Shown piece after piece: positions 23,540 through 37,415 of a stretch of 37,415 bases of DNA. This DNA is from Alphaproteobacteria bacterium. GTDB taxonomy: Bacteria; Pseudomonadota; Alphaproteobacteria; TMED109. The position numbers were made by a program, and so were the translations under genes. The stretch lies in the NCBI GenBank assembly GCA_021296265.1, contig JAGWAT010000020.1, positions 1 to 37,415 of the forward strand. The letters are read 5' to 3'. The notes below the pieces were generated by a model. That model was not told where the DNA came from. It was given only the letters and a program-made list of their open reading frames with translations, and searched no databases. The first letter of the stretch is position 1. Every line of letters begins with the position of its first letter.

Positions 23540-24639
23540 TGGTCTCCCTCCGCGTGTCGGCGGAATGCATCGCGCTCGGCGAACGCCACGGATTTCACCA
23601 GGGCATAGAGGTGCAGGCCCGCCCGGAGCGAGAGGTCGTCGGCCGAGCGGCGCGTGATCCGCGCGCGGATGATCTGGCCCGTGTCGATGCTGACATCGAC
23701 ATGGCCGTCGCCGCGCGGATGGATGCCCTGCACCCGGCCGGGCAGGACATTCATCACGCTGGAGCGTTGCGGGGGTTCGAGGGCCAGGGATACGTCACGG
23801 GCCAGGATGCGCAGCGCCAACGGCGAACCCTTGGGGCGCTCGGTACGCGGGACCAGCAGGGTGTGCTCGCCGAATCGCAATGCGCTCAGGTGATCTTCGT
23901 CGAAGTGACCGGCCACCGTGGTCTGCAGGAGTGTGCCCGCATCCCGCCGGTCATTGAGCACCGGCACGTCCGGGCGCGCCATGACGTCCTGGATGGGGCC
24001 GCAGGCGATGACCGCACCGTTCGCCATGACGGCAAGGTGATCGGCCAGGCGGATGATCTCCTCGATCGAATGGGTGATGTAGATCATTGGAATGCCCGTA
24101 TCGGCCGCGAGATGCTCCAGGTGCGGCAGGACATCGTCACGGCGCTGCTGATCGAGCGATGACAACGGCTCGTCCATGATCAGGAGTTCGGGATCGCTGA
24201 GGAGCGCCCGCCCGATCGCGACCCGCTGGGCCTCCCCGCCCGACAGGTGCCGCGTGCGGCGGTCCAGCAGGGGCTCGAGTCCCAGCAGGCCGACCACTTG
24301 GTCGAAGGCGCCGGGCCCGGCGCCACCGCGCCGGCGGGCGCCGAAGCGCAGGTTGGTCCGGACGTTCATGTGCGGGAAGAGCCGAGCCTCCTGAAAGACG
24401 TAGCCGATCCGCCGCCGTTCCGGGGCCACCGCCACGCCCCGCGCGCTGTCGAACTGGACACGTTCCCCGATGGCGATCCGGCCGCCGTCGGGGCGGATCA
24501 GGCCGGCGATCACATCGGCGACGGTCGACTTGCCGGCACCGGAGGTGCCGAAGAGGCCGGTCACGCCGTTGCCCGGCAGCTGCATGCGGACGTCGAGCGA
24601 GAAGGCTCCCTGCCGGTGGTTGAAGGCGATATCGATCAT
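23536..24639 (-). CDS. modC: Molybdate ABC transporter ATP-binding protein
   Basis: A 367-residue ATPase of the ModC type that energises molybdate (or tungstate) import through ModB. Visible motifs are Walker A GTSGAGKST (about 31-39), the Q-loop in GYVFQEARLFPH, the signature LSGGEAQRVAIGRALL, Walker B LLIMDEPLSSLD and the switch ITHS. The C-terminal about 70 residues form a TOBE (Mop-like) oxyanion-binding domain, characteristic of ModC and absent from phosphate or amino-acid ATPases. The ATG at 24639 overlaps the modB stop (ATGA); the upstream ATG at 24681 would add residues that lie inside modB. Confidence 0.92.
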   Translation of the reverse strand: MIDIAFNHRQGAFSLDVRMQLPGNGVTGLFGTSGAGKSTVADVIAGLIRPDGGRIAIGERVQFDSARGVAVAPERRRIGYVFQEARLFPHMNVRTNLRFGARRRGGAGPGAFDQVVGLLGLEPLLDRRTRHLSGGEAQRVAIGRALLSDPELLIMDEPLSSLDQQRRDDVLPHLEHLAADTGIPMIYITHSIEEIIRLADHLAVMANGAVIACGPIQDVMARPDVPVLNDRRDAGTLLQTTVAGHFDEDHLSALRFGEHTLLVPRTERPKGSPLALRILARDVSLALEPPQRSSVMNVLPGRVQGIHPRGDGHVDVSIDTGQIIRARITRRSADDLSLRAGLHLYALVKSVAFAERDAFRRHAEGDH

Positions 24640-25328
24640 GGCCCGCCGCTCGCATAGTGCCGCGTGCGGCGGGCCAGCCACTCGGAGCCCACAAGGGCGA
24701 TCATTGCCAGCGCGACCGAGATGATGACCAGCCGCGTGGCCTGGGGCTCCCCGCCCGGTACCTGGGTCGCCGCGTACAGCGCCAACGGCAGAGTCCGGGT
24801 TTCGCCGGGGATGCTGGAGACAAACGTGATGGTGGCGCCGAACTCTCCGAGCGAGCGGGCAAAGCTCAGCACCATGCCGGCGAACACGCCCGGCACGATG
24901 AGGGGGAGGGTGACGGTGCAGAACGCATTGGCCGAACTTGCGCCGAGCGTGCGTGCCGCTTGCTCGAGGCGCCGGTCCACGGCCTCGATCGACTGGCGTA
25001 TGGCCCGCAGCATGAGCGGGAACGCGACGATCGCGCTGGCGACTGCGGCCCCCTGCCAGGTGAATCCGAGAGTGATCCCGAAGACGTTCTCGAGAAACAC
25101 GCCGCCGGGGCCGCGCCGCCCAAGGAACACCAGCAGGAGGTAGCCGATCACGACCGGCGGCACGACCAGGGGGAGGTGCAGGAGGCCGTTCAGCAATGCG
25201 TGGCCGGGGAAGCGCGTCCGCGCCAGCAACCAGGCGATGGCGATCGCGGGGGGGAGGCTCCCCAGCACACTCCAGACCGCGACCCGGAGGGACAGCAGGA
25301 GGGCCTCGGTCTCAGCGGGAGTAGGCAT
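24636..25328 (-). CDS. modB: Molybdate ABC transporter permease
   Basis: A 230-residue inner-membrane permease with five to six predicted transmembrane helices (from about residue 12). The cytoplasmic coupling loop EAARTLGASSANAF-like segment is present as EQAARTLGASSANAF (about 137-151), and SFARSLGEFGATITF is the ModB-specific stretch. LPLVVPPVVIGYLLL is also typical of the family. The ATG at 25328 overlaps the modA end by 17 bases; the upstream extension lies within modA and is not membrane-like. It forms a homodimer with two ModC subunits. Confidence 0.93.
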   Translation of the reverse strand: MPTPAETEALLLSLRVAVWSVLGSLPPAIAIAWLLARTRFPGHALLNGLLHLPLVVPPVVIGYLLLVFLGRRGPGGVFLENVFGITLGFTWQGAAVASAIVAFPLMLRAIRQSIEAVDRRLEQAARTLGASSANAFCTVTLPLIVPGVFAGMVLSFARSLGEFGATITFVSSIPGETRTLPLALYAATQVPGGEPQATRLVIISVALAMIALVGSEWLARRTRHYASGGP

Positions 25329-26133
25329 CGGGCGGTGGGGCAAACCCGTGGCGGGAAAAGATGGTCCTGGCAGTGTCCGACTGCAGGAACGCGCGAAACG
25401 CGGCGGCCGCGGCCGGTGCCGGTGCATCGGCCAGCTGCGCGACCCAGTAGGCTACGGGATCGTGCAGCTCGGAGGAAAAGGTGCCGAGTACCCGGAGCCC
25501 CGGGGTCGCACGCGCGTCGGTCCAGTAGATGATCCCGAGGGGCACTTCGTGGCGTCGCACCAGGAGCGCTGCGTGCCGGACATCGCTGGCGGGAGCGGTA
25601 CGCGCCTGGAGGCGCTCCCAGATGCCGAGCGACTCGAGGGCTTGGCGCGCATAGATCCCGGCGGGGACCGCAACGGGTTCGGCGATCGCGAGCCGGCCGT
25701 CGCCGAGCATCGCTTCGAGATCGAGCTTGGCGTCAACCGTCACGGGTTCCAGCTCCGTGTCCTGCGGGGCCACCAGCACCAGCTGGTTGCGGAAGAGGTA
25801 GCTGCGGCTTCCGGCGGCCAGGAGCCCGACGTCCTCGAGGCGGTCCATCCACAGGGCGTTGGCCGACAGGAACAGATCGGCCGGCGCGCCGGATTCGACC
25901 TGGCGGGCCAGCGCGCTGGTCGCGGCCAGGGAGAAGCGCACGCGTCCGCCCCCGGCGGCGGCGTAGGCGGCAGCCACGTCTTCGAGAGCGGCGCCGGTCG
26001 AGGCTGCGGCAAACACCAGGATTTCCTCGCCGGCAACTGGCCCGGCCGCCGGCCCCCCTTGGGTAAGGGGGACCGGGACCGAAACCATTCCGAGGAGGGC
26101 GAGGCAGGCAGGCAGCCACCGGGCAATCCACAC
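25312..26133 (-). CDS. modA: Molybdate ABC transporter substrate-binding protein
   Basis: A periplasmic ModA with 273 residues if the GTG at 26133 is used. That start gives a clean signal peptide (WIARWLPACLALLGMVSVP) and puts the promoter and inverted repeat (26162-26192) upstream of the gene. The ATG at 26187 would add 18 residues encoded by the operator itself, which I think is artefactual. Core features are LVFAAASTGAALEDVAAAY (start of the mature lobe), FSLAATSALARQVESGAPADLFLSA, the oxyanion-binding serine region, and VPAGIYARQALESLGIW. The mature length is normal. Its gene order with modB and modC is standard. The ribosome binding site at the GTG is weak, which is the main doubt about the start. 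Confidence 0.88.
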   Translation of the reverse strand: MWIARWLPACLALLGMVSVPVPLTQGGPAAGPVAGEEILVFAAASTGAALEDVAAAYAAAGGGRVRFSLAATSALARQVESGAPADLFLSANALWMDRLEDVGLLAAGSRSYLFRNQLVLVAPQDTELEPVTVDAKLDLEAMLGDGRLAIAEPVAVPAGIYARQALESLGIWERLQARTAPASDVRHAALLVRRHEVPLGIIYWTDARATPGLRVLGTFSSELHDPVAYWVAQLADAPAPAAAAAFRAFLQSDTARTIFSRHGFAPPPDAYSR

Positions 26134-26161
26134 GACCCTGGGCTGCTGGCGCCGCGCGCGT

Positions 26162-26192
26162 ATTATATACCACAGGATATAACGCATTGCAA
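26162..26192 (-). promoter_or_regulatory. Promoter of modABC
   Basis: On the minus strand a TTGCAA hexamer (26192-26187) is followed after 17 bases by TATATA (26169-26164), or after 19 by a perfect TATAAT (26167-26162). This is the most AT-rich stretch for several kilobases. Transcription would begin near 26155, about 20 bases before the preferred modA GTG. Confidence 0.6.
26163..26182. promoter_or_regulatory. ModE-type operator (inverted repeat)
   Basis: TTATAT (26163-26168) and ATATAA (26177-26182) form a perfect inverted repeat separated by 8 bases, with a flanking CG after the right arm and a near-matching CG before the left. The pattern resembles known ModE boxes (CGnTATAT-type half-sites facing each other). 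It overlaps the -10 hexamer, so a bound dimer would block transcription of modABC. A ModE-type regulator gene lies just upstream. Confidence 0.6.
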
Positions 26193-26349
26193 GCTCGGTC
26201 GGGCCGCCACCGGACACCCTCGGCGACCGGAGGGCTGGACGCGCCGGACGCCCGCTACCGGGTTGGCGGCCATGGCTGCATCCGGCTGCTGGCATCAGGC
26301 GGGGGCCGTGTGGGGCGGGAGCGGTGGTGCGGCCGGCCCCCGCCGGGTC

Positions 26350-26730
26350 CTACTCCGGCTCACCGGCAACCGACGGACCCGGATCGGCGGCGATCATCGT
26401 CTGGAGGTCGGTCAGAGATCTGCCGGCGGCCCGGGCGGCATCGGCTTCCACGGCCTGGTAGGCAGCGAGCACGCGTCGCCCGAGCTCGGTGACCCGGGCG
26501 CCGCCAACGCCGCGTCCGCCGGGGCTCGCGGTTACGAGCGGCCCCGTGAAGTTCCGGTTCATCGAGTCGACCAACAGCCAGGCGCGCCGGTAGGACATGC
26601 CGAGGTTCCGGGCGGCGCCGGCGATTGAGCCCGCGTCCGCGATCGCGCCGAGCAGGGCGGCCTTGCCGGGACCGAACAGCGGGAGGTCCCCCAGCTGGAC
26701 GCGAATGCGGATCCGCGGCTCGGTGGTCAC
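26350..26730 (-). CDS. ModE-type transcriptional regulator, DNA-binding domain only
   Basis: A 126-residue winged-helix protein of the ModE N-terminal type. The DNA-binding region reads IRIRVQLGDLPLFGPGKAAL, then LLGAIADAGSIAGAARNLGMSYRRAWLLVDSMN (about 26-58), then the wing with SPGGRGVGGARVTELG. It ends after about 110 residues, so the molybdate-sensing Mop/TOBE domain of E. coli ModE (262 residues) is absent. It may bind DNA constitutively, sense through a partner, or respond indirectly. The GTG start overlaps the DUF192 stop (GTGA), which fixes it. It is the last gene of the 12-gene unit and lies directly upstream of the modABC promoter. Confidence 0.87.
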   Translation of the reverse strand: MTTEPRIRIRVQLGDLPLFGPGKAALLGAIADAGSIAGAARNLGMSYRRAWLLVDSMNRNFTGPLVTASPGGRGVGGARVTELGRRVLAAYQAVEADAARAAGRSLTDLQTMIAADPGPSVAGEPE

Positions 26731-27212
26731 CGGTCGGGGCCGGGTTCGGTGTCGAAATGGGGATGATGCACGCGGTCCCCCGGACGCAGGCCGAGGCGTT
26801 CCGCGGTCCCTGCCAGCACTTCCAGGACACCGTTCACGTAGACGTCGGGGCCAATCGGGGTGAGCGACAGCGGGATCGTGTCCTCGGCGATTGCGGCAAT
26901 GGTGCCGTCGGGGCGGATGAACAGCATGTCGAGCGGGATGTAGGTGTCCTTCATCCACATGCGGATGCGTCGCGGGGGCGTGTACAGGAAGAGCATGCCC
27001 TCGTTCTCGCCGAGCGTGAGCCGGTGCATCAGGCCCTGCCGCTGCTGCGCATCGGTCACCGCCAGTTCCACCTGGAACTGGTACCGGGCGGTCCCCGACT
27101 GGATCTCGGCCATGCCGACCTGGAAAGTCTCGATCGCTGCGGCCGTTGTCGGTCCCCACACCAGCGCCGCGACCAGCACCCATGCTGCCGCCCGACCGCC
27201 AGGGCCGGTCAT
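26727..27212 (-). CDS. DUF192 family exported protein
   Basis: A 161-residue protein with an N-terminal signal peptide (WVLVAALVWGPTTAAA) and a DUF192 domain (about 40-155). The signature is QRQGLMHRLTLGENEGMLFLY (58-78 region), then RMWMKDTYIPLDMLFI and VLEVLAGTAERLGLRPGD. The family is widespread, small, secreted or periplasmic, and of unknown function. The ATG at 27212 overlaps the cystathionine lyase stop (ATGA), and its own stop overlaps the regulator start, so it is firmly inside the transcription unit. Longer upstream frames run antisense-free into the lyase gene and are not supported. Confidence 0.85.
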   Translation of the reverse strand: MTGPGGRAAAWVLVAALVWGPTTAAAIETFQVGMAEIQSGTARYQFQVELAVTDAQQRQGLMHRLTLGENEGMLFLYTPPRRIRMWMKDTYIPLDMLFIRPDGTIAAIAEDTIPLSLTPIGPDVYVNGVLEVLAGTAERLGLRPGDRVHHPHFDTEPGPDR

Positions 27213-28408
27213 GCCGTCTCGCCTTTCAGGCGCGCGAAGCCCGCTTCGAGGTCGTCCTGGAGGTCGGCCACGTCTTCTAGGCCGACATGGATGCGGAAGG
27301 TCCGTTCGGGCGCCGGCCAGGGCGTGACCTCCCGCGCACCCTTGAGCATCGACGGCACGATGAGGCTCTCGAACCCGCCCCAGCTGTAGCCCATGCCAAA
27401 CAGCTGCAAGGCGTTCAAGAAGGCATCGTAGGCAGCGGGCGGAGCCGGCCGCAGGATCAGGCCAAAGAGCCCGGAGGCGCCTAAAAAGTCGCGCTTCCAG
27501 AGCGCGTACCCCGGGTCCTGCTCGAGGCCCGGGTGCAGGACGCGCTCCACCTCGGGCCGGGCAGCCAGCCACCGGGCCAGGGCGAGCCCTGATTCCATGT
27601 GGCGATGAAGGCGGACGTCGAGCGTCCGCAGTCCGCGGAGCCCCAGGTACAAGTCGTCCGGACCGACGGTGGCCCCCAGTTCCTGCGCGGCCCTCCGGAC
27701 GACTGCATGGGTGTCTGCGGTCGTCGTGACGACACCCAGCATGACGTCGGAATGTCCCGACACGTACTTCGTCGCCGCCTGCACCGATACGTCGACTCCG
27801 TGTTCGAACGGTCGAAAGAACAGCGGGCTTGCCCACGTGTTGTCGAGGATCACCGTGCAGCCGCGTGCGTGGGCCGCAGCAGCGATGGCGCGCACGTCCT
27901 GGACCTCGAACGTGTGCGAGCCCGGGGATTCGAGGAACACCACGCGCGTGTTGTCGCGGATCAGGTCGACGATTCCGGCGCCGATGCAGGGATCGTAGAA
28001 GGTGGTCTGCACCCCGAACCGGGCGAGCCAGCCGGATCCCATGCTGCGGGTCGGCCCGTACGCGGAATCGACCATCAACAGGTGATCACCGGCGGCCAGG
28101 AAACTTGTGAGCGCAATCGCTACGGCTGTCTTGCCGGACCCCACGGCGACGCTGCGCGCCCCGCCTTCCGCAGCGGCCATCGCCTCTTCGAACGCGAACG
28201 TCGTGGGCGTTCCGAAGCGGCCGTAGACGACGTCGTCGAGTCGCCTCGGGCCGCGGGTGCGGAGGTCCTCCGTATCCCGGAAGAGAACAGTCGAGGCATG
28301 GTAGACGGGCGGGTTGACGACCCCCCGATGGTCGTGGGGGCTTCGGCCGGCCCGGCCCAGAATGGTGGCTGGTCGCCGCCCGCGCTCGTCAGGACGCGAC
28401 CGGGACAT
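27209..28408 (-). CDS. metC: Cystathionine beta-lyase, PLP-dependent
   Basis: A 399-residue Cys/Met-metabolism PLP enzyme (fold type I). The PLP-binding lysine is Lys214 in ATKYVSGHSDVM, with Asp189 in VILDNTWASP contacting the pyridine nitrogen. YGRFGTPTTFAFE and VGSGKTAVAIAL are family-typical; the latter binds the phosphate. The sequence WGGFESLIVP near the C-terminus points to cystathionine beta-lyase rather than gamma-synthase, though this group is hard to split. It cleaves cystathionine to homocysteine, pyruvate and ammonia. The ATG at 28408 is preceded by GGAGG at ideal spacing; it lies 20 bases inside the upstream sulfurtransferase gene. Confidence 0.88.
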   Translation of the reverse strand: MSRSRPDERGRRPATILGRAGRSPHDHRGVVNPPVYHASTVLFRDTEDLRTRGPRRLDDVVYGRFGTPTTFAFEEAMAAAEGGARSVAVGSGKTAVAIALTSFLAAGDHLLMVDSAYGPTRSMGSGWLARFGVQTTFYDPCIGAGIVDLIRDNTRVVFLESPGSHTFEVQDVRAIAAAAHARGCTVILDNTWASPLFFRPFEHGVDVSVQAATKYVSGHSDVMLGVVTTTADTHAVVRRAAQELGATVGPDDLYLGLRGLRTLDVRLHRHMESGLALARWLAARPEVERVLHPGLEQDPGYALWKRDFLGASGLFGLILRPAPPAAYDAFLNALQLFGMGYSWGGFESLIVPSMLKGAREVTPWPAPERTFRIHVGLEDVADLQDDLEAGFARLKGETA

Positions 28409-29237
28409 CCGCACGCCCTCCCCACTCGGACCACGAGCCGTCGTAGACCGCCCAGTCGTCGCGACCGGTCAGCGTGAGGCCGAGGGCGAGAGTGCAGGCG
28501 CTGACTCCGGAACCGCAGGTGAAGACCGGTCGCTGGTCGCCCGTGACCCCGGCCGTCTCCAGCCGCGCCCGCAGCTCGTCAGAGGGCAGCATACGGGGGC
28601 CGTCGAGCAGGGTCTGATAGGGGAGGCTCACGCTGCCCGGCACATGGCCGCCGCGCAGGCCGGGCCGCGGTTCCGGTTCGGCACCGGCGAACCGTCCGGC
28701 ACTGCGGGCATCGACGACCAGCTCTGCCGCCGTCGCTAGATTGGCGCGGACCGCCGCGAGGTCCCGGATCCGGGTCGGATCGAGGGCGCCGCGGAAGATC
28801 CGCGGTGCCGCTGTCGCCGGGCCCTTGACCAGGCCCCCGCCGGCCGTCGTCCAGGCCGGCAGGCCCCCGTCGAGGACCGACACGCGTTCATGGCCGAACA
28901 GCCGGAACATCCACCACGCGCGGGGGGCGGTGCCGATTCCGTCGCTCGCATAGCAGACGACGTGGTCCCCGGTACCGACGCCGAGGGTTCCGACGGCGGT
29001 GGCAAATGCCTCGGCGCTCGGCACCATGTGGGGCAGTGGCGAATCCGGGTCGGCGATGCCGTCGATCGAGAAGAACGCCGCTCCGGGAATGTGGCCGAGT
29101 TCGAATTCGGCGGCGCCGTCGCGCCGGGTCGCGGGCATGTGCCAGGACGCGTCGAGCACGACCACGTCCGGCTGCTTGCAGGCCGCGCGCAGCCAGTCCG
29201 CGTTTACCAGCGGGGCGGCAGGGGCGCGGTCGTCCAC
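28389..29237 (-). CDS. sseA: 3-mercaptopyruvate sulfurtransferase
   Basis: A 282-residue two-domain rhodanese. The inactive N-terminal domain (about 10-135) contains VLDASWHMPATRRD and HIPGAAFFSID. The active C-terminal domain (about 160-280) has VVDARSAGRFAG, GGHVPGSVSLPY and the catalytic loop CGSGVSA with Cys241. That loop (CG[S]GV[TS]A) indicates mercaptopyruvate sulfurtransferase rather than thiosulfate sulfurtransferase (CRxGxR/K). It moves sulfane sulfur from 3-mercaptopyruvate to thiol acceptors. The start is GTG one base after the cysK stop, with GGAG about 10 bases upstream. It lies between two other sulfur-amino-acid enzymes in one operon. Confidence 0.9.
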   Translation of the reverse strand: MDDRAPAAPLVNADWLRAACKQPDVVVLDASWHMPATRRDGAAEFELGHIPGAAFFSIDGIADPDSPLPHMVPSAEAFATAVGTLGVGTGDHVVCYASDGIGTAPRAWWMFRLFGHERVSVLDGGLPAWTTAGGGLVKGPATAAPRIFRGALDPTRIRDLAAVRANLATAAELVVDARSAGRFAGAEPEPRPGLRGGHVPGSVSLPYQTLLDGPRMLPSDELRARLETAGVTGDQRPVFTCGSGVSACTLALGLTLTGRDDWAVYDGSWSEWGGRADVPVAS

Positions 29238-29238
29238 C

Positions 29239-30267
29239 TCACGACTCTCCTTCGAGCCATGGCGGTACCGGGAGGCCGCGTTCGGTCAGGAAGGACGGAT
29301 TGAAGAGCTTGGAGGCGTACCGGGTTCCGTGATCGCACAGCATGGTGACCACGACGTGGCCGCGCCCGAGGTCGCGAGCGACCCGCTCGGCGCCCGCGAT
29401 GTTGATGCCGGTCGATCCCCCGAGCAGGAGCCCCTCCTCGGTCGCCAGCGCGAAGATGGCGCGCAACGCCTCCTCGTCCGTCACCTGCAGCGAGTCATCG
29501 ATGCGCGCATCCTCGAGGTTGCCAGTCACTCGTCCCTGCCCGATCCCTTCGGTGATCGACGTGCCGTCCGCCTTCGGGGTGCCGGTCTGGACCCAGGCGT
29601 GCATCCCCGAACCCATGGGATCTGCGAGCACCGCCCGCACCTCGGGATTCCGTGCCTTGAGACCGTCGGCGACGCCCGCCAGCGTGCCCCCGGTGCCGAT
29701 GGCGCTCACGAACGCATCGACCTTCCCGTCGGTCTGCCTCCAGATTTCTGGCGCCGTGGATTCCCGGTGCGCTTGGCGGTTCACGGGATTGTCGAACTGG
29801 TTGGCCCAGACGGCGCCGTTCGGCAGGTTTGCCGCGAGTTCTTCGGCGAGCCGGCCCGAAAAGCGGATGTAGTTGCCGGGGTCCGCGTACGGGACCGCCG
29901 GGACGAGCCGGAGACTGGCGCCGATCGTGCGGAGGGCGCTCTTCTTCTCCTCGCTCTGCGTCTCCGGCATCACGATCACCGTCCGGTATCCCATGGCGCT
30001 GCCGATCACGGTCAGGCCGATCCCGGTGTTTCCGGCCGTCCCCTCGACGATGGTGCCGCCCGGGCGCAGCAGGCCGCGCCGTTCGGCGTCCCGGATGATC
30101 CAGAGCGCCGCCCGGTCCTTGACCGACTGGCCGGGATTCAGGAACTCGGCCTTGCCGAGGATCTCACAGCCCGTCTCGTCGGAGAGGCGCCGTAGGCGGA
30201 TGAGCGGCGTGTTGCCGACGAGGTCCGCAACGCTCGCTGCGGGTGAACCGGAAGGCATGGGATTCAT
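29239..30267 (-). CDS. cysK: Cysteine synthase (O-acetylserine sulfhydrylase family)
   Basis: A 342-residue fold type II PLP enzyme. The Schiff-base Lys50 lies in NPGQSVKDRAA. The substrate loop is EGTAGNTGIGL (about 75-85), where the usual TSGNT is TAGNT. The PLP phosphate loop is SAIGTGGTLAGV (about 189-200). EEGLLLGGSTGINIA near the C-terminus binds the pyridine ring. It forms cysteine from O-acetylserine and sulfide; a cystathionine-beta-synthase-like role is a close alternative, given the A-for-S change and the neighbouring metC. The ATG overlaps the ABC-2 permease stop (ATGA), coupling a transporter gene to sulfur metabolism. Confidence 0.88.
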   Translation of the reverse strand: MNPMPSGSPAASVADLVGNTPLIRLRRLSDETGCEILGKAEFLNPGQSVKDRAALWIIRDAERRGLLRPGGTIVEGTAGNTGIGLTVIGSAMGYRTVIVMPETQSEEKKSALRTIGASLRLVPAVPYADPGNYIRFSGRLAEELAANLPNGAVWANQFDNPVNRQAHRESTAPEIWRQTDGKVDAFVSAIGTGGTLAGVADGLKARNPEVRAVLADPMGSGMHAWVQTGTPKADGTSITEGIGQGRVTGNLEDARIDDSLQVTDEEALRAIFALATEEGLLLGGSTGINIAGAERVARDLGRGHVVVTMLCDHGTRYASKLFNPSFLTERGLPVPPWLEGES

Positions 30268-31115
30268 CCTCCTGCCGGCGGACCCCCTCCGCCCGGGCGG
30301 CGTCGGAGCATGCCGCGCTGCGGGTCATACCCGAGCACGGCGGCCGAGAGGAACACGATCGTGCAGGCCACGGTAACGATAAGGCTGGTCCAGTGGATCT
30401 GGCCCTGGCTGGCCCAGCGCACGAGCTCGACGCCGTACGTGAACGGATTGAACCGGGCCAGCCACCAGACCACCTCGGCGCCGTTTTCCAGAAGGCGCCA
30501 CAACGGGTACAGGGCGCTGGAGATGAAGAACATCGGGAAGATGACGAAGTTCATGGTGCCGGCGAAGTTCTCGAGTTGCCGGATGTGGACGGACAGCGCC
30601 AGGCCGGCGGCCCCCAGCAGCAATCCGAACAGCACCGCCGCGGGAAACATCCAGACCCAGCCCAGCAATGGGGTATTGAGGCTGATCTGCAGTCCGATCA
30701 ACGGCAGGCACACGATCAGGAATACGTACACCTGGAGAATCGACAGCATGGTGCCCGCGAACAGCTTGGCGGTCAGCAGGTACCAGCGCGGCAGCGGGGC
30801 GGTCAACAGCAGCCGCATGACGCCCATCTCGCGGTCGTACACCATCGACAGCGATGACTGCATCCCGCTGAACAGCAGGACCATGCCGATGAGACCAGGG
30901 ACGATGTACTCGAAGTAGTTGACGCTCTGCACCGGGTAAGGACTCACGATCCCGGGATCGATTCCCTTGGTCGAGCCGATCCCGGCCGCGAACACGAACA
31001 GCCAGAGCGCCGGCCGGACAAACGCCGACAGCAGGCGGCCGCGCTGCTGGAAGAATTTCACGACCTCGCGGGCGGTCAGTCCGACGAGGGCACGGAGTGC
31101 ATGGCTGGCGGTCAT
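30264..31115 (-). CDS. ABC-2 type permease of PQQ-alcohol-associated transporter
   Basis: A 283-residue ABC-2 family membrane protein with about six transmembrane helices and a long extracytoplasmic loop after the first (STKGIDPGIVSPYPVQSVNYFEYI-like region, 48-71). The segment MVYDREMGVMRLLLTAPLPRWYLL (about 91-114) is the coupling region typical of ABC-2 permeases. The sequence belongs to the subgroup found beside PQQ-dependent alcohol dehydrogenases (PedC-like). Its partner ATPase is encoded at 33320-34093. ABC-2 permeases usually export, so the direction of transport is uncertain. The ATG overlaps the preceding binding-protein stop (ATGA). Confidence 0.85.
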   Translation of the reverse strand: MTASHALRALVGLTAREVVKFFQQRGRLLSAFVRPALWLFVFAAGIGSTKGIDPGIVSPYPVQSVNYFEYIVPGLIGMVLLFSGMQSSLSMVYDREMGVMRLLLTAPLPRWYLLTAKLFAGTMLSILQVYVFLIVCLPLIGLQISLNTPLLGWVWMFPAAVLFGLLLGAAGLALSVHIRQLENFAGTMNFVIFPMFFISSALYPLWRLLENGAEVVWWLARFNPFTYGVELVRWASQGQIHWTSLIVTVACTIVFLSAAVLGYDPQRGMLRRRPGGGGPPAGG

Positions 31116-32335
31116 GAGGGTTGCTCTGGGGTCGCGAACTCGCGGCAGTCGCTGGTTCGCGCGTCCCGGCCCAGCGTATCGAGATCGTTGGTCTGGTGGA
31201 TGAAGCCGGCAAGCGGAGCCACCGCCGTCACCCAGTCCTCCGTCGCGAGCATAACCGGTTGGCGGAGCTGTCCGTTCCAGGGGCGGAACGACAGCGCCGG
31301 CCCCTTCGAGCCATCAAGGCGGAAGTCGGGTCCAAGCAGATACGCATGAAGGTCTCGCTTGGCGGTGGAGGCGGTCCGCACAATGGCCTCGCCGATGGCC
31401 CGGATCGCCACCCAGGCCGCCCAGTCAGTGCCCTCCATGCGCCGCCCGGTCTGCCGCTCAAAGCGGCCATGGACCTGCGGGGCGCCGTGCCGGAGGTAGC
31501 TCCAGTGCCACGGGGTCGGCCGCAGTCCCGCGGCCCCGACCACCGCGGCGGGATCCTGGGTGGAATAGGGGACGGAGCGGGCGAACTCCCGGTCGATGTC
31601 GGCGACGAAGACTGCTTCGTAGTCCGCGCGGCCGGTCAGGAGGTCGAGATCGTTGCGGTCTCGCATCCGCGGGTCGTTGGACAGCACGAAGGCCCGCTCC
31701 TCGTCAATCTTGAGCCCGTAGGTGCTGGCGGCGTGCCGGAACGCCTCGACCGTCCGGGCGTCCTCCTCGAGCGGGCCTTGCAGCACGAGTACCTCGTTCC
31801 AGTCCCGGGCGACCAGGTATTGGGCCGCCGCGTCCGCGAGCATCTGGCGGCTGGGAGAGGTGTGGAGGAGGTGGGCGGCACAGGCCTCCCCGCGCAGACG
31901 GTCGTCCACGGCGGAGACATTGATCAGGATGACGTCTTGGTCGAGCGTCGCCGCCGCCACGTCGCGGACCGCCGCTCCAGGCGCATCGATGAGGAAGACG
32001 AAGGCGCCGGTCTCGGCCCGGATCGCCTCGAGGGCGGCGGGAAGGCCGTCCGCGTCGGCCACCCGCTCCGCCCGCAGCGTGAACTGGACGCCGGCGCGGC
32101 GTCCGAAGGCCCGGATATCGGCCACGCCCATTTCAGCGCCCGCCCTCGGACGGAAGTCGACGCGGTTGGTTTCCGATCGGATATCAACCGGATGGACGCC
32201 CCAGCGCGTGTAGCGAATGTCGTCGGAGAGGTCGAGATATCCGAAGGTGAATTCCGGTCGCTCCTCGGCCGCCGCTGCCGAACAGAGCAGCAGTGCCGCC
32301 AACAGGCCGGCGGCCTGGCGCGTTGCTACTGTCAC
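31112..32335 (-). CDS. Periplasmic binding protein, PQQ-alcohol-associated ABC system
   Basis: A 407-residue periplasmic binding protein of the branched-chain-amino-acid-receptor fold, of the subgroup named for PQQ-dependent alcohol dehydrogenase systems. A signal peptide is visible (TVATRQAAGLLAALLLCSAAAA). The mature protein starts with FTFGYLDLSDDIRYTRWGVHP, family-typical, and later has LLHTSPSRQMLADA, VLQGPLEEDARTVEAFR and TDWAAWVAIRAIGEA. I chose the GTG at 32335, 7 bases after the propeller stop, because it gives a proper signal peptide; the longer frame begins inside the propeller gene. The ligand is unknown; homologous sets have been linked to lanthanide or alcohol-oxidation physiology. 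Confidence 0.85.
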   Translation of the reverse strand: MTVATRQAAGLLAALLLCSAAAAEERPEFTFGYLDLSDDIRYTRWGVHPVDIRSETNRVDFRPRAGAEMGVADIRAFGRRAGVQFTLRAERVADADGLPAALEAIRAETGAFVFLIDAPGAAVRDVAAATLDQDVILINVSAVDDRLRGEACAAHLLHTSPSRQMLADAAAQYLVARDWNEVLVLQGPLEEDARTVEAFRHAASTYGLKIDEERAFVLSNDPRMRDRNDLDLLTGRADYEAVFVADIDREFARSVPYSTQDPAAVVGAAGLRPTPWHWSYLRHGAPQVHGRFERQTGRRMEGTDWAAWVAIRAIGEAIVRTASTAKRDLHAYLLGPDFRLDGSKGPALSFRPWNGQLRQPVMLATEDWVTAVAPLAGFIHQTNDLDTLGRDARTSDCREFATPEQPS

Positions 32336-32342
32336 GACGGCG

Positions 32343-33320
32343 TCAGTCCCGGATTCGAACGGTGTGCGGCGTGCGGCCCACCGCAACCGAGCGGGTGGCG
32401 CGGTTCGCCTCGGTGTCGATCACAGAAATGTCGTCGCTGGCACCGTTGGTAACAACCAGCCTGGAATCATCGCTGGTCAGGGCGGCGCCCCAGACTCGGC
32501 TGCCGGCAAGGATGTACGTCTCCACTGTCCGGGACGCGACATCCACCCGCGCCACGTGCCAGGCCCGACCGAGGGTCACGAAGGCGGTCGTGCCGTCCTT
32601 CGTCATCACCAGGTCCACAGGCGTGATGTCGGCCTCGCGCAACCCCTTCTTCTCGAAGCGGATCGTGTCGGTGACCTGCAAGGTTTCCGCGTCGATGATG
32701 CTGACGCTGCCGCCGAGTTCGTTGGTGACCCAGTACTCGCGGCCGTCCGGGGTGAATGCGCCGCGCCGGGGCCGGTTGCCGACCAGGACGTCGGCCAGAA
32801 TGACGCCTTCCCAGGGATCGATCACGGCGACCGTGTTGGTGGCTTCCGCCGTGACGAACACCCGCTTGCCGTCTGGCGTGAAGGTCACCCCCTCCGGCTC
32901 AATTCCGACATCCTCGATGACCGTGCGGATGGTGCCGCTCGCAATATCGATGACCGTGGCCTCGGCGTCGTCCTCGTTGGAGACTACGAGGATCTCGCCC
33001 GTGGGATCGATGTCGAAGATCTCGGGGTCGTCCCCGGTCTCAATGTGGCCGATAATGGTCTTGGTCTCGAGATCGAGCACCTCGATGCGGTCGGCCTCGC
33101 TCGCGGCGATGAAGAGCTTGCTGCCATCGGGGCTGAAGCGGAGGTCGCGCGGCCGCCCGCCCGTCTCGATCACGTGCTCGATGTCGAGCGTTTCCGAATC
33201 GAGTACGACCACCGTGTCATTGCCCTCGTTGCTCACGTAGATCTCGCCGCCTTGCGCCGGGAGCGCCAGTCCCAGCGCCAGGATCAGCGCAGTAAGCCCC
33301 GTCAACGACCACCGGTGCAT
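32343..33320 (-). CDS. Exported YVTN beta-propeller protein, PQQ-associated
   Basis: A 325-residue secreted seven-bladed propeller of the YncE/YVTN type. After a signal peptide (LTALILALGLALPAQGG) come repeats of about 40 residues, each with a pattern like IYVSNEGNDTVVVLD, then SPDGSKLFIA, then VSNEDDAEATVID, and similar. The subfamily is the PQQ-dependent-catabolism-associated propeller. Possible roles are ligand binding or scaffolding in the periplasm for the neighbouring ABC components. The ATG at 33320 has GGAG 8 bases upstream; a GTG directly before it (33323) is equally possible and overlaps the ATPase stop. Function in this set is not known from sequence. Confidence 0.87.
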   Translation of the reverse strand: MHRWSLTGLTALILALGLALPAQGGEIYVSNEGNDTVVVLDSETLDIEHVIETGGRPRDLRFSPDGSKLFIAASEADRIEVLDLETKTIIGHIETGDDPEIFDIDPTGEILVVSNEDDAEATVIDIASGTIRTVIEDVGIEPEGVTFTPDGKRVFVTAEATNTVAVIDPWEGVILADVLVGNRPRRGAFTPDGREYWVTNELGGSVSIIDAETLQVTDTIRFEKKGLREADITPVDLVMTKDGTTAFVTLGRAWHVARVDVASRTVETYILAGSRVWGAALTSDDSRLVVTNGASDDISVIDTEANRATRSVAVGRTPHTVRIRD

Positions 33321-34093
33321 CACGATGTCTCCTTGGTCTGACTGTTTGTCGTGAAATGTACCAGCGTGTCGTGAAGGTTGGAAAGTCCGGCCCGGCTGAC
33401 CAGTTCACCCGGTTCGCCCGCCTGCCGGATGGCGCCGCGGTGCAGCATGATCACGTGGTCCGCCACTTCGGCCTCATCGACTAGGTGGGTGGCCCAGAGG
33501 ACCGCCATGGACCGCTCGCGCTTGAGTTCGAGCACGTACTCGAGGAGGTCACTCCGGCTGGGCGGGTCGAGTCCGACGGTCGGCTCGTCCATCAGGAGGA
33601 TGCTGGGCTCGTGCAGGAGCGAGCGGGCGAGTTCGACGCGGCGACGCTGACCGCCGGAGAGACTCCGCGCCCGGTCGTCGATGCGGTCTTCCAGGTCGAC
33701 CTGGCGGAGTTCGTGCTCGGTGCGCCGGCGGATCTCGGAGCGGCTGAGGCCGTGCAGCCGGCCGTGGAAGGCGAGATTCTCGCCGACGGTGAGATCGAGA
33801 TCGAGGGTCGCCTGCTGGAAGACGAACCCGATCGAGGAGAGCGCTTTGACGGCTTCGCGGCGCATGTCGAAGCCGCGCACGCGAACCGTGCCGGAGTCGG
33901 GCACGAACAAACCCGCCAACAACTGGAAGAGCGTTGTCTTCCCGGCACCGTTGGGCCCGAGGAGCGACACGTACTGGCCGGGCTGAATGGCAAACGAGAC
34001 GCCCTTGAGAGCCGGCCGGCGGCCGTAGCTCTTGGAGACGTCCTCGATCACGAGAAGCGGATCGTTGCCAGCGGCGGGTTCAGGTGCGGTCAT
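33320..34093 (-). CDS. ABC transporter ATPase, PQQ-alcohol-associated
   Basis: A 257-residue ABC ATPase that should pair with the ABC-2 permease. Motifs are Walker A GPNGAGKTT (about 44-52), the Q-loop GFVFQQATLDLDLTVGEN, the signature LSGGQRRRVELARSLL, Walker B ILLMDEPTVGLDP and the switch WATHLVDE. The GLDPPSRSDL segment is typical of ABC-2-type exporters. The ATG at 34093 overlaps the stop of the previous ATPase (ATGA). It belongs to the PQQ-dependent alcohol dehydrogenase subgroup by resemblance of the whole four-gene set; alone it could be any CcmA/NodI-type ATPase. Confidence 0.87.
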   Translation of the reverse strand: MTAPEPAAGNDPLLVIEDVSKSYGRRPALKGVSFAIQPGQYVSLLGPNGAGKTTLFQLLAGLFVPDSGTVRVRGFDMRREAVKALSSIGFVFQQATLDLDLTVGENLAFHGRLHGLSRSEIRRRTEHELRQVDLEDRIDDRARSLSGGQRRRVELARSLLHEPSILLMDEPTVGLDPPSRSDLLEYVLELKRERSMAVLWATHLVDEAEVADHVIMLHRGAIRQAGEPGELVSRAGLSNLHDTLVHFTTNSQTKETS

Positions 34094-34884
34094 GGGGTCG
34101 AATGTCCGGGATCGGTCGTGGCACCCGCCAGGCCGGCGAGCAGACCACCGTGCCGGTCCAGAAGACCGGTGCGAAATGCATGGATGGCGGGACTGCCAGG
34201 GGTCCGTGGCCGGGCCAAGTCCACCGCCACATCCTGCACGACGCGGGAGGGCGGTTGCGACAGGAACAGGATCCGGTCCCCGAGGAAGATAGCCTCGTCC
34301 AGGTCGTGGGTCACGAACAGCACGGTGGTGGGCTGGGCCTGCCACTGGTCGAGAAGGATCTCGCGCAGCCGGTTGCCGACCGGCTGGTCAAGCGAGACGA
34401 ACGGCTCGTCGAGCAGCAGCAGGGCCGGTCGGATGGCAAACGCGCGCGCGAGCGCGACCCGGCGGCGCTGACCGCCCGACAGGCGCGTCGGATAGGCATC
34501 GAGGTAGCTCCCGAGCTCCATCCGCTCCAGCAGCCGGACGCCGTGCCCCTCGGCACGGGCGCCGGGGTCGAGCACGATGTCGACGTTGTCACGCACGCTC
34601 ATCCAGGGCAACAGGCGCGGGGTCTGGAACATGTAGCTGACCGCCGGGCGCGACCCCGTGTCGTCGGAGGGAATACCCACCGAACCGTCGACGTCATGAT
34701 CGAGTCCGGCGGCGATGTTGAGCAGGGTGGTCTTGCCGCAGCCCGACGGGCCCAGAAGGCAGCAAAACTGGCCGACCGGCACGTCGAACTGCAGGTTCTC
34801 GATCGCCGTGTGCGGCGGTGTCCGGCCATCGCCCGCGAACCGCTTGCGGCGGATGTCAACGCTGAGGCCCGCGGTTACCGCCAC
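34090..34884 (-). CDS. ABC transporter ATPase, nitrate/sulfonate/taurine type
   Basis: A 264-residue ATPase of the TauB/SsuB/NrtD group. Motifs are Walker A GPSGCGKTTLL (about 42-52), the Q-loop YMFQTPRLLPWMSVRDNV, the signature LSGGQRRRVALARAFA, Walker B LLLLDEPFVSLD and the switch VTHDLDEAIFLGDRI; the FQTPRLLPW segment is the group hallmark. The GTG at 34884 overlaps the permease stop by 10 bases, the best-supported start since no ATG is available. It serves the permease and binding protein encoded just upstream, importing a small organic or oxyanion ligand. Confidence 0.87.
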   Translation of the reverse strand: MAVTAGLSVDIRRKRFAGDGRTPPHTAIENLQFDVPVGQFCCLLGPSGCGKTTLLNIAAGLDHDVDGSVGIPSDDTGSRPAVSYMFQTPRLLPWMSVRDNVDIVLDPGARAEGHGVRLLERMELGSYLDAYPTRLSGGQRRRVALARAFAIRPALLLLDEPFVSLDQPVGNRLREILLDQWQAQPTTVLFVTHDLDEAIFLGDRILFLSQPPSRVVQDVAVDLARPRTPGSPAIHAFRTGLLDRHGGLLAGLAGATTDPGHSTP

Positions 34885-35675
34885 CGCGTGAACCGCCGTT
34901 CCAATGGCGCCATGACCCCGTACTCGATCACCATCATGATCACGACAAACGCGAGCGTGTAGGCGAGCACCGCGGCGATGTCGAACAGCTGGAAGAACTC
35001 GTGGAGCTTGAAGCCGACCCCGTTGCTTCGTCCCAGCAGTTCCACCACGAGGACGATCTTCCAGATCAGGGCGATGCCACCACGGGCCGCGGCCATGACG
35101 TAAGGGTAGAGCTGCGGCAGGAAGAACCTGAGGAAGGTCGTCCGCCGGTCGACCCGGAACACCCGCGCCACGTCCAGCAGTTCCCGGTCGACGGCCCGGG
35201 TGCCCTCGCGCACCGTGACCACGACGTTGGGGATCTTGTTGAGGGCCACCGCGACGATGGCGGCCACCTCGGTGAGGCCGAACCAGACATAGCAGAGGAT
35301 GATGAGCACCAGTGCCGGCATGTTGAGGAAAAGGATGTGCCAGCCATCGAGGACGATGTCGGCCCGGCGCCGCGCGCCCATCAGGATCCCGAGCGCCACG
35401 CCGATCACCATCGCCCCGAAGAACGCCGCCGCGACCCGCCAGAGCGTGACGCCGAGATGGAAGAGGAGCCCTTCCTCGTTCAGGTGGTACCACAGCGTGT
35501 CGAGCACGACCCAGGGTGCGGGCAACACCTGGCCGGAGGGATCGGCCGTGGTCGCGAGGCTCCAGACCGAGAGCAGCAGGACAAACGAAAAGATCCGCAG
35601 CCCGGCTGGGCTGCCAATGATGCGCCGGAGCCGCCCCCACGCCGTGGCGGCGACGTCTACGGTGCCGACTGCCAC
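34875..35675 (-). CDS. ABC transporter permease, nitrate/sulfonate/taurine type
   Basis: A 266-residue inner-membrane permease of the BPD_transp_1 type (TauC/SsuC-like) with about six transmembrane helices: FSFVLLLSVWSLA near the start and AYTLAFVVIMMVIEYGVMAPLE near the end. The coupling segment is VDRELLDVARVFRVDRRTTFLRFFLPQLYPY (about 165-195), where the usual EAA residues are degenerate. LPAPWVVLDTLW near the N-terminus is characteristic of this subfamily. The GTG at 35675 overlaps the end of the binding-protein gene by 19 bases; an internal start cannot be excluded, as the ribosome binding site is weak. Confidence 0.87.
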   Translation of the reverse strand: MAVGTVDVAATAWGRLRRIIGSPAGLRIFSFVLLLSVWSLATTADPSGQVLPAPWVVLDTLWYHLNEEGLLFHLGVTLWRVAAAFFGAMVIGVALGILMGARRRADIVLDGWHILFLNMPALVLIILCYVWFGLTEVAAIVAVALNKIPNVVVTVREGTRAVDRELLDVARVFRVDRRTTFLRFFLPQLYPYVMAAARGGIALIWKIVLVVELLGRSNGVGFKLHEFFQLFDIAAVLAYTLAFVVIMMVIEYGVMAPLERRFTRWR

Positions 35676-36646
35676 AGGGTGCCGTCCGCAATGTCAGGAT
35701 CTCGGCCCACGAGCGCCCGCCCGCCGATTTCGGCGAGCACGGCGAACGCCCGATGAATGGCGTCGCTCGAATCCTTGTCAGGGTCGGGGATGCCGGCGCG
35801 GAACGCATCGCGGAGCGCGTGCAGCATGGCGTCGTTCTTGGCGCCGGTCCGTTTGCGGATGCGCTCCCATTCCTCGTCGTCGGCCGCGAGAATCTGGCGC
35901 GCCTCGTGCGTGGCTGCGAGGAAGCCAGCGAGCGCTTCCGGGTTGGCGCGCGCCCAGGCCTCGCTGAAGACGTAGCCGATCAGCGGCAGCGTCTCACCGA
36001 CGCCGAGGCTCGGCAGGACGTCCGTGACCGGAAGAATCTCGTGCATGCCCTGGGCGCGCAGGCGCGCCGTGAAGTTCCAGAACGTCAGTACCGCATCAAG
36101 ATCGCCCCGGAGCAGCATCTGGTTGAGGAGCGGCGGCGCGCCGAACGACAGCTTGGCGGCCTCGGCCAGGTCGCGGCCCGCGGTTCTCAGGCCGTAGGCG
36201 CGCACCAGGAGCCAGCTCTTGTCGATCGAGCTACCCACGACCCCGAGGCGCCAGTCGCCTGCCAACAGGTCGTTCACGGTCTCGATGCCGCTCTCCGGAT
36301 GGGCCATGATGCTGCCCGCGGCGTTGGAATATGGGATCAGCGTGAAGTCCTTGCCGGCACGGCGCTGGCGGCTGACCCAGATCCAATCGGTGACGATGAC
36401 GTCGGCAGCATCCGACAGCAGGGCGATGGCGGTCGCGTCCTTGTTGGTCAGCGGGATAATCTCGAGGTCGAGCCCGAGCCGGCTGTCGAGTCCGTGATGC
36501 CGGACGACATCGAGTTCCCAGTTCACGGTGCCGAACTTGAGCACCGCAACCCGCACGGCGTCCGCCGCCAGGGCGGCGTGCGGGAAGCACGCTTGAAACG
36601 CGCAGATCAACGCCGCCAACACGGCTGGGCGGAGCGAAATCGGCAT
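35657..36646 (-). CDS. Periplasmic binding protein, TauA/SsuA/NMT1-like
   Basis: A 329-residue periplasmic binding protein. A signal peptide (LRPAVLAALICAFQACFPHAALA) ends near residue 28. The mature part starts VRVAVLKFGTVNWELDVVRHHGLD, as in SsuA/TauA/ThiY-like proteins, with DVIVTDWIWVSRQRRAG and AVLTFWNFTARLRA inside the binding cleft. The conserved Trp residues suggest an organic ligand but do not name it; taurine, sulfonates, thiamine precursors and nitrile derivatives are all bound by relatives. The ATG at 36646 is the first gene of the 12-gene minus-strand unit. The frame extends far upstream but without similarity and into the rRNA promoter region. Confidence 0.87.
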   Translation of the reverse strand: MPISLRPAVLAALICAFQACFPHAALAADAVRVAVLKFGTVNWELDVVRHHGLDSRLGLDLEIIPLTNKDATAIALLSDAADVIVTDWIWVSRQRRAGKDFTLIPYSNAAGSIMAHPESGIETVNDLLAGDWRLGVVGSSIDKSWLLVRAYGLRTAGRDLAEAAKLSFGAPPLLNQMLLRGDLDAVLTFWNFTARLRAQGMHEILPVTDVLPSLGVGETLPLIGYVFSEAWARANPEALAGFLAATHEARQILAADDEEWERIRKRTGAKNDAMLHALRDAFRAGIPDPDKDSSDAIHRAFAVLAEIGGRALVGRDPDIADGTLWQSAP

Positions 36647-36703
36647 GGGAAAAATCTTTCGGATCGTACGGGGAGGCCGGGTACCGTCCGGTGACGGGAA
36701 CGG

Positions 36704-36709
36704 TCTATA
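36704..36709 (-). promoter_or_regulatory. Possible -10 element for the 12-gene unit
   Basis: On the minus strand TATAGA lies within an AT-rich patch (36703-36726) about 60 bases upstream of the binding-protein start. No good -35 hexamer is present at normal spacing, so either an activator is needed or the call is wrong. Confidence 0.25.
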
Positions 36710-36791
36710 TTTGTAAGGCAACATAGCGGCTCGGACCAAGGGAGCGAAACGGTTCCACCCGGGCCGCGGAATCTGGCCAGCGGCGAAGGGG

Positions 36792-36820
36792 TTGACTCGG
36801 TTGCCGGCCGCAGGCATTCT
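36792..36820 (+). promoter_or_regulatory. Likely rRNA operon promoter
   Basis: TTGACT (36792-36797) is followed after 17 bases by CATTCT (36815-36820). Transcription would begin near 36827, leaving a leader of about 210 bases before 16S. The weak -10 hexamer and the distance fit an alphaproteobacterial rRNA promoter. Confidence 0.45.
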
Positions 36821-36866
36821 TGATCGTCTTGTCCTCGGAAGACGGGGGCAGCGCGGCATCGCGCGC

Positions 36867-36877
36867 GCTTTTTGACA
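36867..36877 (+). promoter_or_regulatory. boxA-like antitermination element
   Basis: GCTTTTTGACA resembles the boxA of rRNA leaders (consensus near TGCTCTTTnACA), which recruits NusB/S10 to prevent premature termination. The sequence contains TTGACA and could be mistaken for a -35 box, but no -10 follows at the right distance. Confidence 0.45.
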
Positions 36878-36910
36878 GATGAAGATGAAAAGAGATGCGC
36901 AGGCGACGGC

Positions 36911-36928
36911 GTGTTGTGTGATCAACAC
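36911..36928 (+). other. rRNA leader hairpin 1 (boxB-like)
   Basis: GTGTTG and CAACAC form a perfect 6-bp stem with a 6-base loop. It is flanked by a 7-bp inverted repeat, GATGCGC (36894-36900) with GCGCATC (36943-36949), that could enclose it. Confidence 0.5.
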
Positions 36929-36932
36929 GACA

Positions 36933-37004
36933 CCGACGCAATGCGCATCGACGGCCGGCATTGATTCACATCGATGCCGGAAGCTACGTGACGCATTGTG
37001 TCGG
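36933..37004 (+). other. rRNA leader long stem enclosing an inner hairpin
   Basis: CCGACGCAATG (36933-36943) can pair with CATTGTGTCGG (36994-37004) over 11 bp with one G-U. Inside lies a second hairpin of 10 bp with one wobble, CCGGCATTGA (36955-36964) with TCGATGCCGG (36971-36980), loop TTCACA. The outer helix competes by one base with the 36894/36943 pairing. Confidence 0.5.
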
Positions 37005-37010
37005 GTCACG

Positions 37011-37032
37011 GGTCCGGATTCCTATCCGGACC
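37011..37032 (+). other. rRNA leader hairpin 3
   Basis: GGTCCGGAT and ATCCGGACC form a perfect 9-bp stem with a TCCT loop, ending one base before the next hairpin. It ends 6 bases upstream of the expected 16S 5' end and may guide pre-16S processing. Confidence 0.55.
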
Positions 37033-37038
37033 ACTCTC

Positions 37039-37415
<377 letters not shown>

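Follow-up and report, generated by a model that had tools for sequence, protein, structure and literature searches.

The 37,415-base-pair (bp) stretch analyzed here (G000:C5:1-37415; hereafter, the window) has a GC content of 68.8% and comes from a 2.54-Mb genome. Its minus strand carries, from position 36646 down to 26350, twelve genes for a periplasmic binding protein with its own ATP-binding cassette (ABC) permease and ATPase, four proteins of families associated with pyrroloquinoline quinone (PQQ)-dependent alcohol dehydrogenases, three sulfur enzymes, a DUF192 protein and a ModE-like DNA-binding protein. An initial annotation had described twelve near-contiguous minus-strand genes here, and both the coordinates and the family scans agree. 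In 5'-to-3' order, the TauA- and TauC-like genes overlap by 19 bp, TauC and TauB by 10 bp, and TauB and PedB, as well as PedB and the beta-propeller, by 4 bp. The propeller gene is separated from the substrate-binding protein (SBP) gene by 7 bp if the latter starts at the GTG at 32335, or overlaps it by 44 bp if translation starts at the TTG at 32386. Overlaps of 4 bp follow between SBP and permease and between permease and cysteine synthase (CysK), then a 1-bp gap before the 3-mercaptopyruvate sulfurtransferase (MST) gene, a 26-bp overlap of MST with cystathionine beta-lyase (CBL; longest start) and 4-bp overlaps at CBL/DUF192 and DUF192/ModE. The earlier description of every junction as an overlap or a gap of at most 7 bases therefore stands, while its list gave twelve values for eleven junctions and 20 rather than 26 bases for MST/CBL. 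The chain also does not end at the ModE-like gene, as had been proposed: after a 54-bp gap, modA, modB, modC and the gene of a thiamine pyrophosphate (TPP)-dependent enzyme continue on the same strand, the last overlapping modC by 4 bp. On its 5' side the unit faces a ribosomal RNA (rRNA) operon on the plus strand, the 16S gene of which starts at 37039. A scan of positions 23400-37100 returned no sigma-70-like promoter (0.8 expected) and seven terminator-like sites (4.9 ± 2.5 in shuffles); these counts are near chance, so the scan speaks neither for nor against an internal split of what we infer to be a co-transcribed unit.

The first gene (35657-36646), previously labeled TauA-like, encodes a protein with an NMT1 Pfam match that is assigned by sequence comparison to the PQQ-binding PqqT family rather than to TauA/SsuA. 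A profile built from 16 of its relatives (profile A1) matched, among solved structures, PDB 9b1u/9b1v (PqqT; E = 3e-77) and 9ooz at 263 and 260 bits, with everything else at 26 bits or less, the next family at E = 4e-05 and SsuA at 14.5 bits; the window protein alone matched the PqqT structures at E = 2.5e-51. It is 35% identical to PqqT and 20-21% identical to Escherichia coli TauA and SsuA, and the median identity to PqqT over the alignment rows of its relatives is 39.7%. Scans against the sulfonate NCBIfam families stayed under the cut-offs (SsuA_fam, 18.7 versus 163.5; taurine_ABC_bnd, 17 versus 304). An 84-row tree placed PqqT among 81 relatives, away from E. coli TauA and SsuA, with PqqT on a long branch, weak forks around it and a bootstrap that did not settle. 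Residues D87, D142, K143, W43, W145 and W190 are identical in PqqT. K143, part of a D-K-x-W motif and present in 79 of 80 rows, aligns to Lys 115 of the PqqT chain, which a 27-residue offset suggests is Lys 142; according to the literature, PqqT binds PQQ with a Kd of 50 nM and Lys 142 lies near the PQQ site. PQQ is a predicted ligand of the window protein, a homolog of PqqT from Methylorubrum extorquens AM1 that shares the D-K-x-W motif and other invariant residues with it and is encoded with its own permease and ATPase in one operon with a Ped module. With the sulfonate importers TauABC and SsuABC it shares the NitT/TauT superfamily architecture, but most residues invariant in its relatives are not common to them and the unit holds no desulfonation enzyme. 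The permease (TauC/SsuC type; 34875-35675; PF00528, 83 bits) and ATPase (TauB/SsuB type; 34090-34884; PF00005, 94 bits) of this importer are not assigned more finely by NCBIfam: the best permease family, SaoP, scored 96.6 against a cut-off of 295, and none of the 25 families listed for the ATPase reached its cut-off.

Genes four to seven match the curated 'PQQ-dependent alcohol dehydrogenase' ABC families, three of them above cut-off: the PedB/LutE-type ATPase (33320-34093; TIGR03864, 307.7 bits versus 302.25), the PedA2-type beta-propeller (32343-33323; TIGR03866, 322.5 versus 287.3) and the PedC/LutF-type permease of the ABC-2 type (30264-31115; TIGR03861, 312.2 versus 241.35; PF01061). The fourth, the PedA1/LutA-type SBP (31112-32335 with the GTG start), scored 386.6 bits against TIGR03863 (cut-off, 413.6), its sole NCBIfam match when scanned from 32308. 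We take these families to be those of the PedA1A2BC/Lut proteins. The equation rests in part on a model name (PedC in TIGR03861) and on the gene make-up given in PMC6839425; genetic evidence in PMC6839425 and PMC7391723 supports PedA1A2BC and LutAEF as lanthanide importers. The four genes are accordingly taken to be members of the PedA1A2BC/Lut importer families on sequence grounds, with transport of Ln3+ (lanthanide ions) predicted. The initial annotation had seen the association with PQQ and named the set only by it; the families are those of a lanthanide importer. As in PedA1A2BC of Pseudomonas putida KT2440 and LutABEF of M. extorquens AM1, the parts are an SBP, a propeller, an ATPase and an ABC-2 permease, and the window's genome encodes PQQ dehydrogenases with a D-x-D motif. 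The window differs from these systems in the PqqT-like ABC importer ahead of the module, in the sulfur genes, DUF192, ModE-like gene and modABC behind it, in lying on a contig other than that of the xoxF-like gene and in the lack of a homolog of a LutH-like query in eight family genomes.

The order of these seven genes is conserved. Across 22 other loci of the window's family, with 28-70% GC, the six junctions linking PqqT-like protein, permease, ATPase, PedB, propeller, PedA1 and PedC were kept in 17/17, 18/18, 20/20, 21/21, 21/21 and 22/22 testable cases. The recurrence of gene order in relatives, which had been suggested as a test, was thus borne out, and the adjacency of the unit's genes in the window is more than chance. 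One locus (L040, from G001) has no gene calls because one third of its stretch reads N, and was used in tblastn maps only.

To look beyond the family, we sampled the best 80 of 291 relatives of the PqqT-like protein from named genomes (profile A1), ranked by similarity to the window's family; 36 loci had full flanks, 44 were incomplete and 15 were sorted by eye into the family. A locus was called linked, at bit-score limits of our own setting, if any of the following lay within 10 kb: two or more Ped genes, a PQQ dehydrogenase, XoxJ, any pqq gene or a quinoprotein-associated protein. This held for 60 of the 80 loci and for 32 of the 36 whose flanks were complete; two or more Ped genes were nearby in 50 of 80 and a dehydrogenase in 22 of 80. 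The seven-gene order was found in 33 loci, in records labeled alpha-, beta-, gamma- and deltaproteobacteria; 30 of them come from the 59 loci that extend 6.5 kb or more downstream, and the other three are shorter. Eighteen of the 33 lie beyond the window's family set and include Aromatoleum, Thauera, Azoarcus, Rhodocyclaceae, gammaproteobacteria and, by record title, a single deltaproteobacterium. The PqqT-like ABC genes of Mesorhizobium and Phyllobacterium adjoin xoxF-like, xoxG- and xoxJ-type genes and, if the flank is long enough, pqq genes as well. PedA1 scored above cut-off in all 12 named genomes scanned, a hand-chosen set in which six already had PedA1 in the fetched locus; in the other six it lay outside. 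Among the literature matches listed, all open papers and none of them the original PqqT papers, we found no description of the PqqT-like/Ped linkage, which does not prove its absence.

The genome context agrees with use of lanthanides. Four PQQ dehydrogenases scored above the family cut-off in the window's genome, and all four carry D-x-D, a mark of lanthanide use; the count leaves out a fifth match, at C38, that falls into two parts. One of the four is XoxF-like (motif PHDEWDYD) and has as neighbors an XoxG-like cytochrome (under cut-off), XoxJ, a CXXCW protein and SoxH-like and SoxYZ-like proteins. In fetched loci, which do not hold every dehydrogenase, 22 family genomes contributed 25 distinct PQQ-dehydrogenase rows, and all 25 carry D-x-D, the middle residue being Y, F or L; WDYT occurred in three rows from three genomes outside the family. 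The set beside the xoxF-like gene (L090:11411-14807) is quinoprotein-associated and comprises the CXXCW protein, which is rhodanese-like, a SoxH-like hydrolase and a SoxYZ-like carrier; a DUF3280 protein is encoded there as well. Of the 28 family genomes, 24 have PedA1 and 19 have the PqqT-like gene, which in G026 is in two pieces and contains stops. Among the nine without the PqqT-like gene, the contig ends short of its place in G002, G005, G020 and G022, an N stretch covers it in G001, and neither it nor PedA1 was found in G009, G012, G024 and G025. Outside the family, four of 33 genomes have a PqqT-like gene; all four have a PQQ dehydrogenase, compared with nine of 33 overall (E 1e-100; hypergeometric p = 0.003), and three of the four have PedA1, compared with five of 33 overall (p = 0.007).

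Together, these computed family memberships, the linkage and the genome context lead us to propose, at a probability of roughly 65%, that the front seven genes form a cofactor-uptake operon for lanthanide-dependent quinoproteins that imports PQQ and lanthanide and carries a sulfur and molybdenum extension. The PqqT-like binding protein, with the TauC-like permease and the TauB-like ATPase, would import PQQ, either as such or as a complex, and lanthanide ions would cross the inner membrane through the PedA1A2BC/Lut-type transporter. The two importers would jointly provide both halves of the lanthanide-PQQ cofactor, metal and quinone. The recipients would be XoxF-like and other alcohol dehydrogenases of the periplasm, whose genes lie elsewhere in the genome. 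Within the window's family the operon has been extended by genes for cytosolic CysK, MST and CBL, for the DUF192 protein and for the single-domain ModE-like protein as a putative regulator; some members of the family also have modABC in it.

Several observations weigh against this proposal. The PedA1 protein scores under its curated cut-off (yet with E = 9e-116). Four of the 36 full-flank loci are unlinked (L138 and L149, Skermanella; L158, Aurantimonas; and L177), the genomes of L138 and L158, both tested, carrying PedA1 elsewhere. G050 and G055 have PedA1, a PQQ dehydrogenase and PqqC without a PqqT-like gene, and G056 has a PqqT-like gene without PedA1, patterns indicating that neither importer needs the other. 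The sulfur and molybdenum genes are left unexplained by uptake of lanthanides and PQQ, and a symporter insertion described below shows that they are separable. PqqC and PqqE are present in the window's genome, which can therefore make PQQ and does not strictly need to import it. All 80 of the 80 relatives have W88, W90 and R95, positions at which PqqT has L, F and G; with the long branch of PqqT and the weak forks around it, this mismatch implies that the ligand may differ. Lastly, no homolog of a LutH-like receptor was found in eight family genomes searched with one query protein; other TonB plug domains were present in nine of nine family genomes tested.

PQQ auxotrophy as the reason for import was considered and set aside, given pqqC and pqqE in the window's genome and, each above cut-off, in 24 of 28 family genomes. 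Outside the family, G035 (93% complete) has a PqqT-like gene, PedA1 and a strong PQQ dehydrogenase with no PqqC match and a partial PqqE only, and is possibly a PQQ user unable to make PQQ. In G050, a TonB-dependent receptor gene (L057:4423-6636) follows the Ped module after one small gene, in an island with pqqBCDE and xoxF-xoxG-xoxJ-like genes; this receptor had no match in G043 or in the eight family genomes searched.

Behind PedC, the sulfur genes encode a CysK-type cysteine synthase (29239-30267; NF007989, 534 bits versus a cut-off of 387), MST (28389-29237; NF008557, 254.6 versus 250) and CBL (27209-28414; TIGR01324, 464 versus 366). They are followed by the DUF192 protein (26727-27212; PF02643, 105.9 bits), whose N-terminus looks by eye like a signal peptide, which would make it periplasmic, and by the ModE-like protein of 126 amino acids (26350-26730), a single-domain DNA-binding protein scoring below cut-off against TIGR00637 (81.0 bits versus 98.5) and HTH_1 (25.4 versus 26.6) and without any molybdate-binding (TOBE/Mop) domain in domain and family scans. 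ModA (25312-26295; TIGR01256, 162 bits versus 62.5), ModB (24636-25427; TIGR02141, 225.9 versus 182.6) and ModC (23536-24681; TIGR02142, 425.7 versus 285; TOBE domain, PF03459) all exceed their cut-offs, as does the TPP-dependent enzyme of the acetolactate-synthase superfamily, subfamily PRK08199 (21833-23539; NF006052, 795 versus 539). Compared with modE-modABC of E. coli, the window has the full modABC and a probable ModE-type DNA-binding domain, but its ModE-like protein lacks molybdate-binding domains and stands at the end of another operon.

These genes are conserved in a different manner from the front seven. In the family loci, the gene after PedC is CysK in 14 of 21 and MST directly in the other seven, so that MST follows PedC or CysK in 21 of 21 testable loci. 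After MST comes CBL in six of 20 loci, all six from the window's genus, and a GltP-like symporter gene in the other 14, on the opposite strand (one such protein was typed). Farther on, CBL is followed by DUF192 in 11 of 12 loci, DUF192 by ModE in 19 of 19, ModE by ModA in 11 of 19 and ModC by the TPP enzyme in 10 of 10 testable loci; three ModA-ModB misses in the adjacency count are artifacts of the overlap limit, and the CBL miss at L041 is an insertion. The opposite-strand symporter implies two conserved blocks, a front block from the PqqT-like gene to MST and a back block of (CBL)-DUF192-ModE, and they are contiguous only in the window's genus. The single twelve-gene program proposed earlier is accordingly not the conserved state: the symporter splits it in 14 of 20 loci, cysK is missing from the block in seven of 21, and no more than 11 of 19 loci have ModA next to ModE. 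In the wider sample, at least two sulfur or molybdenum genes lay near the PqqT-like gene in 15 of 80 loci, none labeled beta-, gamma- or deltaproteobacterium, and four more loci had one such gene only, including a distant CBL match in Microvirga.

The sulfur and molybdenum genes are a local extension of the operon in this alphaproteobacterial family, with modABC in part of it. For the sulfur genes, ordinary sulfur assimilation kept beside the operon is the likeliest role; a supplying role, for instance toward the sulfur-relay proteins beside xoxF, is possible. The genome holds two further near full-length CysK matches (45% and 40%), so the operon copy is not the sole one, and the idea that the sulfur enzymes are the genome's only copies was ruled out for CysK. 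According to PMC12997753, a rhodanese-domain gene adjoins pedC in the ped cluster of P. putida; its product is listed as non-cytoplasmic, so this is no more than a hint. A closely balanced question, at slightly less than even odds, is whether the front operon acts as we propose and the sulfur and molybdenum genes are mere neighbors, brought together by genome streamlining with no common function. The opposite-strand symporter, the absence of cysK from the block in a third of the loci, ModA not following ModE in eight of 19 loci and the additional CysK copies all suit such a view; it sits less well with the 4-bp overlaps within the window, the unfailing position of MST after PedC or CysK and the DUF192-ModE junction kept in every testable locus.

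A candidate operator raises the question of control. Upstream of the operon, at 36705-36726, lies the semi-palindrome CTATGTT-N8-AAATATAG, 59-80 bp before the first start codon. When searched as CTATRTT-N8-AAYATAG, it was the only match with zero or one mismatch in each of four of the seven genus genomes (G000, G003, G004 and G006), each time upstream of the operon; no such match was found in G001, G002 and G005, where the fetched sequence stops short of the upstream region. A reversed-pattern control gave zero to two matches per genome at up to two mismatches, about the two-mismatch count of the pattern itself, so only matches with zero or one mismatch carry weight. Regulation by the ModE-like protein is our inference, and its strongest form, in which this protein represses the whole operon through the palindrome and couples lanthanide and PQQ uptake to molybdate status, is doubtful. 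The uniqueness and position of the palindrome are in its favor, and its half-sites resemble the TATRT of the E. coli ModE consensus (PMC545781), yet the spacing is off by 2 bp by our own count and the site is not significantly similar to the region upstream of E. coli modA (16 of 28 positions matched; 272 of 2,000 shuffles scored as high). Moreover, the four genomes seem to form two close pairs, scans show no molybdate-binding domain in the regulator, and by eye no element like this palindrome was seen before the operons of low-GC relatives. A conserved site between modE and modA was likewise looked for by eye, and none was seen.

The earlier suggestion of an organosulfur ligand or a metallophore came closer with its second option. 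A non-PQQ lanthanide complex (lanthanophore), carried by the PqqT-like importer to feed or parallel the Ped transporter, would fit the linkage, which covers lanthanide genes as well as PQQ genes, the divergence from PqqT at W88, W90 and R95 and the lack of a LutH-like homolog in the eight family genomes; we consider it unlikely, since the nearest solved relative, PqqT, binds PQQ and the Mesorhizobium genes adjoin pqq genes. More speculatively, and with small probability, the importer might take up ready-made lanthanide-PQQ through W88, W90 and R95, residues that PqqT lacks, the seven genes serving as a dedicated holo-cofactor salvage system across Proteobacteria that is tied in this family, by a single-domain ModE-like repressor, to molybdate and sulfur supply. 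Import of an organosulfur compound to feed CysK, MST and CBL is very improbable and was set aside on family membership and linkage: three sulfur enzymes lie downstream in the same unit, the ABC parts are of NitT/TauT type and, according to PMC10848612, an operon annotated ssuABCDE in the methylotroph RH AL1, whose SsuA may be a true SsuA or a PqqT-like protein, changes expression with lanthanides, but the binding protein groups with PqqT at 20-21% identity to E. coli TauA/SsuA, four further genes belong to the Ped/Lut lanthanide importer, betaproteobacteria and rhizobia link the importer to Ped/PQQ genes without sulfur genes, and TauD, SsuD and SsuE types are absent among the unit's matched families.

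The ways in which bacteria obtain scarce lanthanides and PQQ are still an open question, and all the more so in seawater with its picomolar lanthanide levels (PMC12542740). The recurrent seven-gene operon joining a PqqT-like importer to a lanthanide importer is a concrete candidate for a second uptake route; it suggests a function for proteins that family models assign no further than to the NMT1/taurine/sulfonate superfamily, points to Aromatoleum, Thauera and Mesorhizobium as model bacteria and makes it likely that the window's family uses lanthanides. The lut-pqq 'methylotrophy island' of TMED127/Methylaequorales likewise holds marine alphaproteobacterial lanthanide uptake genes; according to PMC12542740, lut, pqq and xoxF stand together there, whereas in the window's genome they are on separate contigs and the PqqT-like ABC genes are joined to the Ped module. 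The window's family probably is, or adjoins, the marine AEGEAN-169/HIMB59 clade. A term search of the main text of the paper on that clade (PMC10308909) found no methanol, lanthanide or quinone.

Some minor observations were made along the way. At L041:3253-6951 (G002), the unit's CBL gene is broken by an insertion with a transposase-like open reading frame of 311 amino acids (named by eye). At L107:3248-7100 (MarineAlpha9_Bin6), no propeller or SBP gene was matched between PedB and CysK, and the permease match is weak (57 bits). The end of the window, 37039-37415, is the 5' portion of the 16S rRNA gene, with 23S, 5S and a tRNA next on the contig. Finally, the palindrome search surfaced TGTTTCACGTGAAACA sites, three of them within 205 bases at G001:C34:39000-39204, with others including G000:C4:169994; these sites resemble the known parS of ParB.

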